Shown piece by piece: positions 3,664-46,287 of a stretch of 64,000 nucleotides of DNA. The translations under genes and the position numbers were made by a program. Below the pieces are notes generated by a model. It was not told the origin of the DNA. It ran no database searches and was given only the letters and a program-made list of their open reading frames with translations. Each line of letters opens with the position of its first letter. Position 1 is the first letter of the stretch. The DNA comes from Pyrofollis japonicus. GTDB lineage: Archaea > Thermoproteota > Thermoprotei_A > Sulfolobales > Pyrodictiaceae. Location of the stretch: positions 186,001-250,000 of the forward strand of contig NZ_AP028634.1 of NCBI RefSeq assembly GCF_033097485.1, given 5' to 3'.

Positions 3664-5319
3664 TTATCTACATGCTGTTGTGTCGTATACATAGACGTCC
3701 GCATACATTATACCTATTGGATAGTAGCCACCATTGAGATAGTAGTCAACATTTGACTTATACAGCCATGGCCATAGCTCGCATGAGCTGTCACCTACTT
3801 GGTTGGTGTCAAGGCCAACAATCATTGATACGGCCGACATCGTCTCCCCTTGCTTGGTTAGGCTAACACCTACGCCAATAAGATTTGAATCAATAATGCT
3901 ATTAATAGGTAGGCTGACACCCGCTGAGAGTATTGATATAGTTGATATTTTCTTCATATACGAATACGATGATTCCATGAAGGCTTTATCGAGCCAACCG
4001 TAATCCACGTGATCCCAATACATAAAGATGCTATGGACTGCCGGCCAGGCAACGCTATGACTATTACTGTATGGTTCTGGGCTAAGTTCTGCCCAGCCAT
4101 AAATGGCTCCGCCATCATTATCAACTAGTACAGGTCGCACCATGGTAGTGTTCATATATGTGTTCGTAGCAACTGGTTTTACGATACACGTACCGCTTGA
4201 GCAATCAATGAGGGTAGTGTAGAGCCTATACGTCGCAACTGCTATATCACCGTTTAAACCTATAGATACTAAATAGGGAGTTGTCTCCTTCATACTTTTC
4301 CACTCAATACTGGCCTTCCCATTAAGAACAACCCTGTAGCACTGCGGACCGATACTCGTCAAATAGCATCCTCCATCCGGCCCTAGTACGGGATTACTTG
4401 TTGAATCAGCCCTAAGCATAACCTGCAACCACGTTTTTGTGCCACCCAGCTCGAAGGAAGGACCTGGAATCTCGTATCCTAGGGGCGTTACAGATGTTTG
4501 ATCTTTTTTGAATTCGAGTGCACTCATGCTAAAGGTTACCTTTATATCTGTTGAGGCGTCTGCCATTAATCCTACTGAGAGATCAACGTCGTTGATGGTA
4601 TACAGGTCGGGGCCATGCAAATATACAGCGACAAGGGGAAGCGGTTTATCATAGTATGTTTTGTAGCCTTCCAGCTCCCAGTAGCTTAGCGAATCTCTAG
4701 GTATTCTTTCCCTTGGAAATTCTGAGAGAGACTTTGCACCAAGTATAGCGTTATACTCGCTCCACGTAATAGCAGGCTTGCTAGGCTTATAGCTAATGCT
4801 TAGGTCGGCCGAGTAGCCTTGCACTATTTTCTCTGCACTAACTGTAACACTTTTTACAAATCCATATACGCCTTTGCCCGTTTCTATTACTGTGCCAAGG
4901 ATTATCAGTGGAGGAAAAACGGTATTTGTATCGACGCCTTTTCGCTGAGCCCATCTGATCCATGATCTGTAATAATCGGTAATGTTCCCGCTGTCAAGGC
5001 GGGCTGCGAATACATTGCTATTACTACTGGGTCTAAGCTCGTACCTGCCTAGCTTAACTATAGACCCGTTCGGAGCCCATCCATAAATGCTTACTGATAC
5101 TGAGGCTGCATGCCTTATACTAGATACTGAAAGCCTTATGTCAAAATCCTGTACACCGTTAAGCATCTTATAATACCTTATCGCAGAGCCGCCAAAAATC
5201 ACACTAGTGTATGACGAAGTCTCTACAGAACCTACGGCACTATATATGACATAGCTTAAGGAAATTGCAGAGAGCAATACGGCTATAGCTATAACTTTTT
5301 TATTTTCAACAGGCTTCAC
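3664..5319 (-). CDS. Large secreted or membrane-anchored protein of unknown family
   Basis: A 551-residue AT-rich gene. Residues 8-30 (KVIAIAVLLSAISLSYVIYS) form a signal peptide or N-terminal anchor after a short basic start; the rest is rich in Ser/Thr/Tyr beta-strand-like sequence with several N-glycosylation sequons, as in archaeal surface proteins. Cys residues are mostly in the C-terminal half (DCSSGTCIV, SSCELWPW, TTACR) and could form disulfides. The start is GTG at 5319. The promoter holds a 15-bp quasi-palindrome next to a TATA box (5359-5394). Composition differs from the GC-rich neighbours but matches the surface genes at 8-10.5 and 16.8-20.1 kb. I recognise no family. Confidence 0.7.
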   Translation of the reverse strand: MKPVENKKVIAIAVLLSAISLSYVIYSAVGSVETSSYTSVIFGGSAIRYYKMLNGVQDFDIRLSVSSIRHAASVSVSIYGWAPNGSIVKLGRYELRPSSNSNVFAARLDSGNITDYYRSWIRWAQRKGVDTNTVFPPLIILGTVIETGKGVYGFVKSVTVSAEKIVQGYSADLSISYKPSKPAITWSEYNAILGAKSLSEFPRERIPRDSLSYWELEGYKTYYDKPLPLVAVYLHGPDLYTINDVDLSVGLMADASTDIKVTFSMSALEFKKDQTSVTPLGYEIPGPSFELGGTKTWLQVMLRADSTSNPVLGPDGGCYLTSIGPQCYRVVLNGKASIEWKSMKETTPYLVSIGLNGDIAVATYRLYTTLIDCSSGTCIVKPVATNTYMNTTMVRPVLVDNDGGAIYGWAELSPEPYSNSHSVAWPAVHSIFMYWDHVDYGWLDKAFMESSYSYMKKISTISILSAGVSLPINSIIDSNLIGVGVSLTKQGETMSAVSMIVGLDTNQVGDSSCELWPWLYKSNVDYYLNGGYYPIGIMYADVYVYDTTACR

Positions 5320-5358
5320 CTTTCAAGCTATATTAATATAATAGTAACATAAAAACCT

Positions 5359-5377
5359 CGGTGTAGATGGCATCTAC
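5359..5377 (-). promoter_or_regulatory. Candidate operator (copy 1 of a 19-bp element) beside a TATA box
   Basis: On the plus strand the element reads CGGTGTAGATGGCATCTAC; its last 15 bases are a 7+1+7 perfect inverted repeat (GTAGATG, G, CATCTAC). On the minus strand a TATA box (TTTTATAAAA, 5394-5385) lies 8 bases upstream, so the element falls between TATA and the expected start of transcription for the surface protein beginning at 5319. That is the usual place for a repressor site. An 18/19 copy in the same position relative to a TATA box is at 44674-44692. Confidence 0.5.
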
Positions 5378-5491
5378 CAAAGATTTTATAAAATTTAGAG
5401 GAACACTCGATAAACAGCTTGAAAATGAGAATTGAAAAATAAACCAGTATTAGGCCCTACTCCGCATTTTAAACTGTCTTGGTAGTACGCT

Positions 5492-5716
5492 ATGAAAGCC
5501 AGCAATGTTATTAATGATATTCTTTCAAGACGTGATCCTAGAGGATACTATGTTATACCTGCTAAGCGGGAGGCACTAGGCCTCGTGAGCAGATTTGAGG
5601 GAGTTGAGGTTGAGGAGGCTGGTGACGTTATCGTGGTGAGGGTTAAGGCTAGGAGCGTTGCGAGAAGGATTGCTTTGATGCTTTCACGTAGGGGGTTGCT
5701 TGTAACCGAGTTCTAG
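5492..5716 (+). CDS. Small hypothetical protein
   Basis: A 74-residue protein starting at ATG, with weak ribosome-site similarity (GGTAG) about 8 nt upstream. It is charged, with an alternating helix/strand pattern (GYYVIPAKREALGLVSRF, then VEVEEAGDVIVVRVKARS), and it ends LLVTEF. Such small alpha/beta proteins are common in Crenarchaeota. I recognise no family and see no membrane segment. It lies in the AT-rich stretch between the surface protein at 3664-5319 and the duplicated gene at 5980, and is probably transcribed alone. Confidence 0.55.
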   Translation: MKASNVINDILSRRDPRGYYVIPAKREALGLVSRFEGVEVEEAGDVIVVRVKARSVARRIALMLSRRGLLVTEF

Positions 5717-42856: not shown

Positions 42857-43079
42857 TGTTCTTCTCCTAGACTTGTCAGGGCTGACGCGTGAGGGGTGAT
42901 ATTGTTGACGCCGTGTACCTGGGGGTTAGTTTTTCTATCTTTTGCTTCAGATAAACGGGTTAGCATATCTATACGGTCCCATTGTGCTTGTTTTACACGA
43001 ATACTATTGTTCTCTAGCCGGGGCACCTGGTGCCGCAAAGGCAGTTATCACGCTGATTAACCTCACGTGGGGAGCATCA

Positions 43080-43886
43080 TTGATAGCTGGCCTTGAGGAA
43101 TTAGACTATAGGAGACTTGCCTCTCTCTTCTCGCTCTACGAGAGGGATCCGCTCAGTCACTGCTACCTAGCATTCGATGTCATGTATATGAGGGACCGTA
43201 TAGACCTCGTCACGGAGTTCGAGGGGACAAGCATCAAGGGCTACGTAATGCTCTGGTACAGCGGCTATGGTACAGCAGCGATACACGTATGGGGCAATGG
43301 GGTAAAGCTACTGAGCCTCGTTGAGCTGAAACCAACTACTGAAAAGCTCATCGTGCACCTCCCCCGGTGGAGCAACGAAGAAGTGAAGAGTATCAGTGAT
43401 TTTCTCCGTGAAAAAGGCTACGAGGTGGTCACTAGCAGAGTTTACTACGATATGGTTCTCCGAGAGGAGTGGTTCAAGCCCTTCGTGCTGGGCCAGGTTA
43501 CTAGGCTGAAACAGCACCATGCTGACATCTTCGCCGAGGCGATGAGGAGGCAGGGATACAACATAGGCTTAAACACTGCAAGAGAGCTGCTGAAGAGCTG
43601 GCGCTGCTACGCCATAATAATCGAGGGCAGAATAGCGTCCATGGCTTGCCGCTACCTCATGCTGCCAGAGGTGGGCTGTGTTGGCAACGTCTATACGGAG
43701 CCTATTTACAGAGGGAGAGGATACGCAAAGGCAGTGACGTCGGCAATAAGCCATGATATAGTGGCTAGTGGTGCAACAGCGCTACTCCACGTTGAGTCAG
43801 GCAATGAGCCAGCTATACGCGCCTATAAGAGAATAGGGTACAGGATAGCTGGGCAAAAACTATGGATAACAGCAAGGAAAATCTAA
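43080..43886 (+). CDS. GNAT-family N-acetyltransferase
   Basis: About 268 residues from TTG 43080 (GTGGGGAG upstream). The acetyl-CoA site is in the C-terminal half: VGNVYTEPIYRGRGYAKAV (motif A, R-G-x-G-Y) and LLHVESGNEPAIRAYKRIGY (motif B). The N-terminal half (LEELDYRRLASLFSLYERDP, then GYVMLWYSG) resembles a second, degenerate GNAT unit. An open frame extends back to a TTG at 42942, but that part crosses the likely promoter of the divergent gene. The target amine (protein, antibiotic or small molecule) cannot be told. Confidence 0.82.
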   Translation: MIAGLEELDYRRLASLFSLYERDPLSHCYLAFDVMYMRDRIDLVTEFEGTSIKGYVMLWYSGYGTAAIHVWGNGVKLLSLVELKPTTEKLIVHLPRWSNEEVKSISDFLREKGYEVVTSRVYYDMVLREEWFKPFVLGQVTRLKQHHADIFAEAMRRQGYNIGLNTARELLKSWRCYAIIIEGRIASMACRYLMLPEVGCVGNVYTEPIYRGRGYAKAVTSAISHDIVASGATALLHVESGNEPAIRAYKRIGYRIAGQKLWITARKI

Positions 43887-43894
43887 GGAACACA

Positions 43895-44629
43895 CTATAT
43901 GCGGAGAACCCGGGGAGCCTTCTTACACTCTTCTTGAACCCTACTAGCTACTAGCTCATCAACTGTATCAGCTATGGTCTTCGCTGCTCCTTCAGGGCTC
44001 CGCCGATCAACATACACTACTCTGAGGAAGGAGCTTACGCGGTTCTCTAGCACAATACATGGCTTCTCAAACGTAGCTACAACAACGTAGACGGGCTCGC
44101 TGCGCATCACTGCCGCGCCAAGGCCTGCAAGGGCCTTGACAACTGCCTCGCTACCGTTAGCCGCCAGGTACACATGGACGTGTTTCCCGTTCTTTACTGC
44201 GTGCAGTTCCGCTATCCTCTCAAGGCTACAGCGGTGAGCTAGCAAGTTCTTAACATAGTATCCTCTTCCACGAAGAAGCTCAGCAGCCTTCTCGGCGATT
44301 TGCTGCTTTACCTCGTGCGCCTCACTATCAAGCATACTACTAATCGTCTCGAGTAAGACCAAGGCAGCGAGTCCACGAGGCGTCAGCACATAGGTCTTTC
44401 TGAGACCAGGTTCTAGGCTAAGCTCCTCTACGACGCCTATCTTGGTGAGCAGCCTCAGATACTTCTCGACAGTCTTGAGGTTTAACCCGCCTAGCCGAGC
44501 CAGCTGGGACTTCGTGAGATGACCATTATCCTTGAGAGTGCGAAGCATTCTTGCAACAGTATCGTAGTTTATGCCGCCATTATGGCCAGCGCCGCTAGCT
44601 ATATGGTTGGCAGAGGCGTTTCTGGACAA
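43895..44629 (-). CDS. Winged-helix transcriptional regulator
   Basis: 244 residues. wHTH near residues 20-75: INYDTVARMLRTLKDNGHLT, then KSQLARLGGLNLKTVEKYLRLL, then GVVEELSLEPGLRKTYVLTPRG. A helical linker and a C-terminal alpha/beta domain of about 130 residues follow (KHVHVYLAANGSEAVVKAL, then SEPVYVVVATFEKP), which may bind a ligand or be restriction-endonuclease-like. The start is TTG 44629; the annotated N-terminus before the HTH is Asn/Gly-rich. Its promoter holds the 19-bp element shared with the surface protein at 3664-5319, so it may regulate both. Convergent with the GNAT gene. Confidence 0.78.
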   Translation of the reverse strand: MSRNASANHIASGAGHNGGINYDTVARMLRTLKDNGHLTKSQLARLGGLNLKTVEKYLRLLTKIGVVEELSLEPGLRKTYVLTPRGLAALVLLETISSMLDSEAHEVKQQIAEKAAELLRGRGYYVKNLLAHRCSLERIAELHAVKNGKHVHVYLAANGSEAVVKALAGLGAAVMRSEPVYVVVATFEKPCIVLENRVSSFLRVVYVDRRSPEGAAKTIADTVDELVASRVQEECKKAPRVLRI

Positions 44630-44673
44630 AGCTCGATCATTTAGAATCTATGTCTTTGACTAGCTAAATAGTG

Positions 44674-44692
44674 CGGTGAAGATGGCATCTAC
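44674..44692 (-). promoter_or_regulatory. Candidate operator (copy 2 of the 19-bp element) beside a TATA box
   Basis: Plus strand CGGTGAAGATGGCATCTAC, 18 of 19 identical to 5359-5377. On the minus strand TTTTTATAT (44707-44699) lies about 7 bases upstream, so the element falls between TATA and the expected transcription start of the wHTH gene. The flanking CAAGAT is also close to copy 1 (CAAAGAT). Autoregulation by the wHTH protein is inferred. Confidence 0.5.
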
Positions 44693-44853
44693 AGCAAGAT
44701 ATAAAAAGGAGCGCCTTCGCTGGGCCGCCGTCTATAGTCGTGGCTTCAATATTTTTGTAAAATTTTTGAAACTATTAGTATAGATTTTGTGTAGCTTAAC
44801 CAGCCTTAAATGAGGTCGGCGCTCCCGGGTATCCTAGGGAGGCGGGTACTCGT

Positions 44854-46287
44854 ATGGAGCCTGCACCTAGTTCTACTGTTTCTCGTTGGCTTCACGGCTA
44901 CGTTGTTTCAAAGATGTCGCGGCTCAATGTGCCCGGGCTAAGCCTGACTGTGATGAGGAGCGGGGAGCTTGTTGAGCAGAGAGCCTATGGCTATCGAAGC
45001 CTTGAGAAGAGCTTGCCCGCTACGCCGGACACTGTCTACGAGATAGCTTCTATAACTAAGGTGTTCACTGCTGTAGCGATAATGCAGCTCGTCGAGAAGG
45101 GCGTGCTAAGCCTAGACGATCCCGCGGACAAGTATTTACCGATAGAGCTGCGGGTCAAGAACGAGCCTGTGCGTATTTGGCACTTGCTGAGCCATACTAG
45201 CGGTATCCCCGCGCTGGGCTATGCGGAGGCCCTGCTGAGCAGCTACTTCGCCATGTCTAGGACGTGGCTCCCGTACTCCGACCCGCGCCACGTTCTAGAG
45301 TGGCTCGAGAAGGGGGCTAGGCACTGGGCCATCGCTTCCCCCGGTGAGCGGTTCTTCTACCTCAACGAGGGCTTCGTCGCGCTGGGCTTGATTATCGAGA
45401 GGGTTTCCGGCCTCAGCTATGCAGACTACGTTGAGAGGTACATTGTCAAGCCGCTCGGATTGCAGAACACTACTGCGAGGTTCGAGGAGGCTCAGCGCCA
45501 CCCCTTATTGGCCACGCCGTACGATTCCTCCCAGAACCCCCCTAAGCCCATGACGCTGCCCTCGACGATCTACGCTGATGGAGGCATCTATAGCTCGTCA
45601 ACCGACTTGGCCAAGTTCATGCAGGCGCTGGCTAATAGGGGTAGGCTCGGAGACGCCGAGATATTGTCCAAGAGCAGTGTCGAGGAGATGGAGAAGCCAC
45701 GTGCAAAGCTACCGACTCAGCTCTTCGGGGACGACTCCTATGGGCTCGGCACGATAATCTATAGTGGTTTTCCCGCCGGGAAGCTTGTCGGGCATAGTGG
45801 CAGCGTTTACGTTTACACGGGCTATGCTGGCTACATAGCCGACAAAGGGTTATCCATAGGAGTATTGGCGAACGCTGACGCGGCTCCACGAGACATAGCT
45901 ATGGCTGTGCTCGCGGCCCTCGGAGGCGCTGATCCCGAGCAACTACCCTTCATCAAGGCCGACAAGCTGTTGGAGAGCCTTGAGGGAGTATACCACGGCT
46001 ACATGGGCACCGTTAAGGCGAGGGTTGAAAGGCTTGGCGACAACCTCGTCCTCGAGATGATTGAGCCCCGTGGCGGCAAAGCTGTGCTGGAGCCCGCCAA
46101 ACCAATTACCGAGATGCCTTTCGACCATCCGGTGTTCCTGCTCCGGTCTGGTGGCAGGGTTCTCGAAGTAGAGTTCCGTGTTGACCCCGTGAAGGGCGTT
46201 GAAATGATTTATGAGCGCTACCGCTTGGTGAAGGTTGCGCCACTCGAGGCCGTGGAGCCGAAGAGGAGCACCATAGTGCTCTGGTAA
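44854..46287 (+). CDS. Serine hydrolase, beta-lactamase class C family
   Basis: 477 residues. Catalytic triad motifs of the class C/DD-peptidase fold: SITKVFTAVAIMQL (S-x-x-K near residue 68), FYLNEGFVALG (Y-x-N) and LVGHSGSVY (H-x-G replacing KTG). The C-terminal ~110 residues are a separate beta domain (GVYHGYMGTVKARVERL). Archaea lack peptidoglycan; relatives are esterases or D-aminopeptidases such as archaeal Pab87-type peptidases. No signal peptide is visible, so it is cytosolic. The ATG has no clear ribosome site. The sugar nucleotidyltransferase gene begins 37 bases downstream. Confidence 0.9.
   Translation: MEPAPSSTVSRWLHGYVVSKMSRLNVPGLSLTVMRSGELVEQRAYGYRSLEKSLPATPDTVYEIASITKVFTAVAIMQLVEKGVLSLDDPADKYLPIELRVKNEPVRIWHLLSHTSGIPALGYAEALLSSYFAMSRTWLPYSDPRHVLEWLEKGARHWAIASPGERFFYLNEGFVALGLIIERVSGLSYADYVERYIVKPLGLQNTTARFEEAQRHPLLATPYDSSQNPPKPMTLPSTIYADGGIYSSSTDLAKFMQALANRGRLGDAEILSKSSVEEMEKPRAKLPTQLFGDDSYGLGTIIYSGFPAGKLVGHSGSVYVYTGYAGYIADKGLSIGVLANADAAPRDIAMAVLAALGGADPEQLPFIKADKLLESLEGVYHGYMGTVKARVERLGDNLVLEMIEPRGGKAVLEPAKPITEMPFDHPVFLLRSGGRVLEVEFRVDPVKGVEMIYERYRLVKVAPLEAVEPKRSTIVLW

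Follow-up and report, generated by a model that had tools for sequence, protein, structure and literature searches.

A conserved 21-bp inverted repeat beside TATA-like boxes as a probable operator of a winged-helix regulator in Pyrofollis japonicus

Two minus-strand genes in the window analysed here, a 64,000-nucleotide stretch (G000:C1:186001-250000, G000 being the window's genome of 2.005 Mb), carry nearly the same 19-mer beside a TATA box. Is this element an operator and, if so, which protein reads it and at which genes? The 19-mers described in the first-pass annotation, one upstream of a putative surface-protein gene (5359-5377) and one upstream of a gene for a winged helix-turn-helix (wHTH) protein (44674-44692), are present in the window sequence and differ at one base. 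Resemblance of this degree carries little information by itself, as had been noted: by arithmetic, 0.86 such 18/19 pairs are expected per 64 kb by chance alone. The features concerned are as follows.

3664..5319, minus strand: gene for a 551-aa protein, putative target; hydrophobic N terminus, GTG start
5348..5355, minus strand: gene-side TATA-like box TTTTTATG, 4 bp past the operator and 28 bp upstream of the GTG start
5360..5380, minus strand: predicted 21-bp operator, surface-gene copy, reading TTGGTAGATGCCATCTACACC on the gene strand; core 5363-5377
5385..5392, no strand assigned: far-side TATA box TTTATAAA, 4 bp past the operator; the TATA cited in the first-pass annotation
5492..5716, plus strand: 74-aa open reading frame (ORF) facing away from the surface gene, with counterparts in 15 of the 20 family genomes
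43895..44629, minus strand: wHTH regulator, TTG start; N-terminal winged helix (HTH_45/HTH_24, Sso10a/MarR-like) and C-terminal alpha/beta domain
44663..44670, minus strand: gene-side TATA-like box TATTTAGC, 4 bp past the operator and 33 bp upstream of the TTG start
44675..44695, minus strand: predicted 21-bp operator, wHTH copy, reading GCTGTAGATGCCATCTTCACC on the gene strand; core 44678-44692
44700..44707, no strand assigned: far-side TATA box TATAAAAA, 4 bp past the operator; the TATA cited in the first-pass annotation
44854..46287, plus strand: divergent hydrolase beside the regulator, beta-lactamase/S12-type with a Pab87 octamerization domain

The core at 5363-5377 is, as had been claimed, a perfect 7+1+7 inverted repeat around a single central base, and the copy at 44678-44692 has the same symmetry with one mismatch. 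The shared element proved to be the core of a 21-bp dyad, GGTGWAGATGNCATCTWCACC, with units at 5360-5380 and 44675-44695. The surface-gene copy departs from this 21-mer at three positions, all within a degenerate distal arm that reads TTGG instead of GGTG. A structured RNA was rejected as an explanation, as an Rfam search gave no match, no tRNA was found, and at the ABC-transporter and membrane-protein genes described below the TATA box comes after the dyad.

Comparison with other genomes yielded eight promoter sites in three genomes of one genus: G000, G056 and G069. Among 147 genomes searched, orthologues of the window's wHTH protein were found only in G056 and G069 (40-43% identical to it), the remaining matches being distant wHTH proteins. 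The dyad is present in the wHTH gene's own promoter in all three ortholog-carrying genomes, reading GGTGTAGATGGCATCTTCACC and GGTGTAGATGACATCTTCACC in G056 and G069. Two further target types, absent from the first-pass annotation, also emerged. The third G000 site, at C1:267779, precedes an ABC-transporter ATPase gene and adjoins TATAAATA; G056 has a site before the gene of an ATPase 71% identical to the one in G000, and G069 (86% complete) lacks a close counterpart of this gene, the best match being 36%. A perfect 21-mer, GGTGTAGATGNCATCTACACC, lies before the gene of a 218-aa membrane protein in both G056 and G069, the only two of 20 family genomes with this protein. The eight sites are thus those at the wHTH genes (G000, G056 and G069), the ABC genes (G000 and G056), the membrane-protein genes (G056 and G069) and the surface gene (G000). 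The gene-proximal half, CATCTWCACC, is unbroken in all eight; all damage falls in the distal half, and the surface-gene site and the G000 ABC site have damaged distal arms.

In alignments anchored on the operator, conservation was concentrated on and around the dyad. Between the G000 and G069 wHTH promoters, 19 of 21 operator positions agree, as do 9/16 just upstream (over the far-side TATA) and 8/12 just downstream, versus 10/44 farther upstream and 17/57 farther downstream. The G000 and G056 ABC promoters agree at 17/21 positions in the operator, 10/12 from there through the TATA box and 6/16 just upstream, versus 15/44 and 15/57 beyond these upstream and downstream, respectively.

The 21-mer is also specific. 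Across 229 genomes of the class, it occurred six times with at most one mismatch, versus zero for the reversed-pattern control, and all six occurrences are promoter sites in G000, G056 and G069. As the 21-mer was defined partly from G000 sites, this is a cleaner test than counts in G000 itself, though it too takes in the sites that suggested the outer arms. Within G000, the core with at most one mismatch was found at three places versus 0.23 expected (Poisson tail 0.002), namely both window copies and C1:267779, and the 21-mer with at most three mismatches gave three versus 0.18 (Poisson tail 0.0008), both expectations coming from an order-3 Markov simulation. Allowing three mismatches in the 20 family genomes gave 13 sites versus 8 for the reversed control: the eight promoter sites, all in G000, G056 and G069, and five inside ORFs (one each in G007, G134 and G056, two in G076).

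Shorter or looser patterns lost this specificity. The bare 13-mer core occurred 15 times in 147 genomes of the order versus 16 for the reversed control, a chance-level count for which we rejected the 13-15-bp core as a lone search key. With two mismatches allowed, the core matched at 13 places in G000 versus 6.5 expected. The ten weaker places were discounted as sites because they lie mostly inside ORFs (seven; one more overlaps a gene start) and the intergenic pair lacks the GGTG/CACC arms. The first-pass annotation had been wary of many coding copies away from promoters and of loss from orthologous promoters; extra near-matches occur at about chance frequency, and the dyad is kept in the wHTH promoters. 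Separately, the 13-mer core occurs at one equivalent place in G065 and G096, of another family, at what appears by eye to be the ATG of a small gene, and is probably coding sequence there. In the literature text searched, neither 15-mer core occurs; other motif strings, mostly half-sites, recur, and among the matches listed none is by title a study of an archaeal regulator.

The position of the dyad relative to the TATA box is fixed. On the gene side, an A/T-rich TATA-like box begins five bases past the operator, leaving a 4-bp gap, at all eight sites: the two ABC genes share TATAAATA, the two membrane genes share TATAAGCA, each wHTH gene has TATTTTAG or TATTTAGC, and the surface gene has TTTTTATG. 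The operator edge lies 41-56 bases from the gene start at the sites measured; the longest ORF of the G056 wHTH gene overruns the operator, and its start was taken from the alignment with G069. Four sites, those of the three wHTH genes and of the surface gene, have a strong TATA box five bases out on the far side as well (TATAAAAA once, TTTATAAA three times); at these genes the gene-side boxes are weak and the far-side boxes strong. The corresponding far-side position holds no TATA at the G000 ABC site or at either membrane-gene site, and the G056 ABC site has an A/T-rich but not TATA-like stretch there, AATTAATT. A pattern search independently matched the wHTH sites in both orientations, the G000 far side with one mismatch.

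It is this far-side box that the first-pass annotation had cited in both promoters. The box is there, but it lies on the side opposite the named minus-strand gene, which has a weaker TATA-like box on its own side, making the assignment to that gene doubtful. The spacing, given as 7-8 bases, is in fact the same in both copies, with 7 bases between 19-mer and TATA, or 4 when counted from the 21-mer (TTTATAAA at 5385; TATAAAAA at 44700). The similar CAAAGAT/CAAGA stretch lies between operator and far-side TATA, which we infer to be the BRE position of an outward-facing promoter. By its register, the far-side TATA may serve the divergent gene that such two-TATA sites face, an S12-type hydrolase at the wHTH sites of G000 and G056 and the 74-aa ORF at the surface site. 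Counting against an outward promoter is the leader of about 75-125 nt that it would need for the hydrolase; the membrane gene has a divergent neighbour and no far-side TATA. In a survey of 79 genes from the window and five loci, with start codons taken as longest-ORF guesses, TATA-like hexamers showed two peaks relative to the start codon, at -80 to -61 and at -50 to -41, a hint that many transcripts carry leaders.

The candidate reader of the dyad has a winged helix at residues ~22-100 that is close to Sso10a and MarR proteins. For HTH_45 (Pfam PF14947), the window protein scored 27.4, above the gathering cut-off of 25.5, and the G069 and G056 orthologues scored below it, at 16.6 and 14.8; scores for the Sso10a family (NCBIfam NF053610) were 32.6 and 22.9 bits, below the curated cut-off of 60. 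Sso10a-2 was the best match both by sequence (E 0.0018, five-protein profile) and by Foldseek, and many MarR chains matched structurally with Z 12-13. The protein shares its N-terminal wHTH with Sso10a and MarR-type proteins, but it falls below the NCBIfam cut-off for Sso10a and has an extra C-terminal domain of ~140 aa. The wHTH filled the match list of the first fold search, and the weak matches there, methyltransferases mixed with MarR chains, were set aside. Modelled alone from three sequences (pLDDT 78.9, pTM 0.80), the C-terminal domain best matched restriction-endonuclease-like folds: Can2 (Z 9.3, rmsd 3.1, 121 aligned), Tk-TIP26 (Z 7.8, rmsd 3.8, 96 aligned) and Hjc (Z 7.4, rmsd 3.2, 97 aligned; Foldseek E 0.01), where values of Z below 8 may merely reflect a common arrangement. 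No sequence match to Can2, Hjc or Tk-TIP26 was found at E up to 10, and we therefore rejected sequence kinship to Tk-TIP26 or Hjc. The C-terminal 144 aa are thus predicted to resemble these PD-(D/E)XK proteins by fold only and, with no E-x-K apparent by eye on the expected strand, the domain is probably inactive.

These observations argue that the operator is real, that it very probably belongs to the adjacent wHTH regulator and that the regulon is small and conserved. That the dyad is read by the protein encoded at 43895-44629 is, on sequence evidence, highly likely. The full reading, to which we give a probability of about three in four, is an autoregulated local regulator of envelope genes acting through the 21-bp operator. 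The 21-bp dyad and its conserved half-site point to a dimer, and a dimer of the winged-helix protein would bind GGTGWAGATGNCATCTWCACC and, 4 bp from a TATA-like box, cover the BRE region. From there it could govern loading of TBP and TFB, either competing with them or contacting them. Its targets would be its own gene, the surface-like protein and the ABC transporter in G000, the same transporter in G056, and the membrane protein in G056 and G069. MarR-type regulators commonly repress their own genes and release their targets in response to a ligand. The likeliest mode here would be of that kind, with negative autoregulation and repression of a few envelope targets relieved by a presumed ligand; for repression as the main effect we see even odds.

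The strongest competitor, to which we assign distinctly lower odds, is a dual-mode or activating regulator. Bound just upstream of BRE/TATA, as at the ABC and membrane genes, it would activate; at the wHTH and surface genes, where the operator separates a strong TATA from the gene, it would repress. The distribution of far-side TATA boxes fits this division, as these are strong at the wHTH and surface sites and missing from the G000 ABC and membrane sites. There are also precedents. As described in the relevant passages of PMC5937170, TFB-RF1 (PF1088) of Pyrococcus furiosus is a local regulator that uses a 13-nt palindrome, TCTGAANTTCAGA, at the promoters of its own operon and of an ABC-transporter operon, and from a palindrome immediately upstream it activates the transporter promoter, whose BRE is weak. 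TrmBL1, according to the corresponding part of PMC4706686, repressed 9/9 templates with the site downstream and activated 2/3 with the site upstream. A TFB-RF1-type position upstream of BRE/TATA is found at the ABC and membrane genes. On the other hand, a gene-side box 4 bp away at all eight sites suggests one geometry for every target, and the operator extends into the BRE, so that a protein bound there might just as well block TFB.

Instead, some other transcription factor in these genomes could read the operator. Some of the searched genomes carry further wHTH relatives, and another regulator could share the same distribution, the link to the wHTH protein being drawn from sequence comparison. 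We consider this unlikely, given that the site occurs in the wHTH gene's own promoter in three of three cases and that strong sites occur only where an orthologue was found. All three same-genus genomes with the orthologue have sites, and neither protein nor sites were found in two other genomes of the genus. These two are only 68% and 60% complete, so that the phyletic linkage rests on few genomes; likewise, G056 and G069 are closely related and all three belong to one genus, leaving few independent evolutionary replicates. Near the starts of the distant wHTH homologues in G028 (26% identical) and G039 (21%), no dyad with 9-bp arms was found.

A bolder version of the regulator model is slightly less credible still. 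Here, one dimer on the central dyad would control back-to-back promoters through the 4-bp TATA register on each side, with the inactivated nuclease-like C-terminal domain, similar in fold to Tk-TIP26, touching TBP on the neighbouring TATA box directly; Tk-TIP26 is known to us as a TBP-interacting protein from the title of its structure. If true, this would be a sequence-specific regulator bearing its own TBP-binding arm.

Very improbable is an upstream mini-ORF or leader peptide, conserved and with its start at an ATG within the element. At seven of the eight sites, reading toward the gene opens 8-16 codons that begin M-x-S-S/T-P, but the G056 ABC site has no ATG in this direction, changes occur at first codon positions (the dyad centre and the W) rather than third, and the left arm, which precedes the ATG, shows dyad-symmetric conservation. 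Moreover, at the ABC and membrane genes the TATA box comes after the element, which places the element outside the transcript. Least credible of all is a chance resemblance of two promoters, which the expected 18/19 pair per 64 kb and the chance-level count of the 13-mer in the order would allow, but which conservation across genomes and the absence of control matches in 229 genomes contradict.

Set against known systems, the proposed wHTH regulator resembles TFB-RF1, as far as the passages on that protein go, in having a palindrome at its own and at ABC-transporter promoters, just upstream of BRE/TATA and conserved by phylogenetic footprint; it differs in operator sequence, with a 21-bp dyad 4 bp from TATA and, at some promoters, TATA boxes on both sides. 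As with TrmBL1 and the Thermococcales glycolytic motif, in the part of the literature consulted on them, palindrome position relative to TATA varies between targets, but TrmBL1 is a global sugar regulator with the motif TATCAC-N5-GTGATA, whereas a local envelope regulator is predicted here. As far as our searches show, the operator is ordinary in kind and new in sequence, geometry and regulator architecture; the literature search found no experimentally studied Pyrodictiaceae regulon among the matches listed and no comparative genomics of crenarchaeal regulons. Most likely, judging from these comparisons, a mirror-image site 4 bases from TATA in hot-vent archaea is where a regulator controls itself and a few membrane or surface genes. 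This would provide a small, testable Pyrodictiaceae regulon with a regulator, an exact operator, four target types and a fixed promoter geometry. The 4-base operator-TATA register, which the regulator's own promoter shows on either side, would make a clean model for archaeal regulators acting on TBP/TFB, and the regulator's extra, predicted nuclease-like domain offers a clue to the way nuclease folds turn into regulatory parts.

The first-pass annotation had predicted that the wHTH protein controls both itself and the surface gene. The tie to the wHTH gene stands: its own promoter has the dyad in all three genomes, and none of the other genomes among the 229 has a site within one mismatch. Control of the surface gene is the weaker half, because it rests on one site in one genome with a degenerate distal arm, and no relative has both gene and site. 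The 551-aa protein is likely secreted or surface-located and has no match in Pfam or NCBIfam; at 11 further loci with paralogues or relatives (L073-L083), none has the operator, the best having four mismatches. A Pfam search with the divergent 74-aa ORF gave nothing, but its retention in 15 of the 20 family genomes marks it as a real gene; its copy in G056 has no nearby operator, indicating that the operator does not travel with that gene.

At the regulator locus, G056 encodes a same-family hydrolase in divergent orientation to the regulator, and G069 has sequence there that matches the hydrolase start. Window positions 42942-46287 encode a GNAT acetyltransferase, the wHTH regulator and the divergent S12/Pab87-type hydrolase, and the same trio occurs in G056; around the G069 regulator, a GNAT-like neighbour and the hydrolase start were seen. 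At the third G000 site (locus L088, G000:C1:262000-273000), the operator-bearing ABC ATPase gene sits between a MoxR-type AAA gene and a same-strand cluster with a VWA-domain gene.
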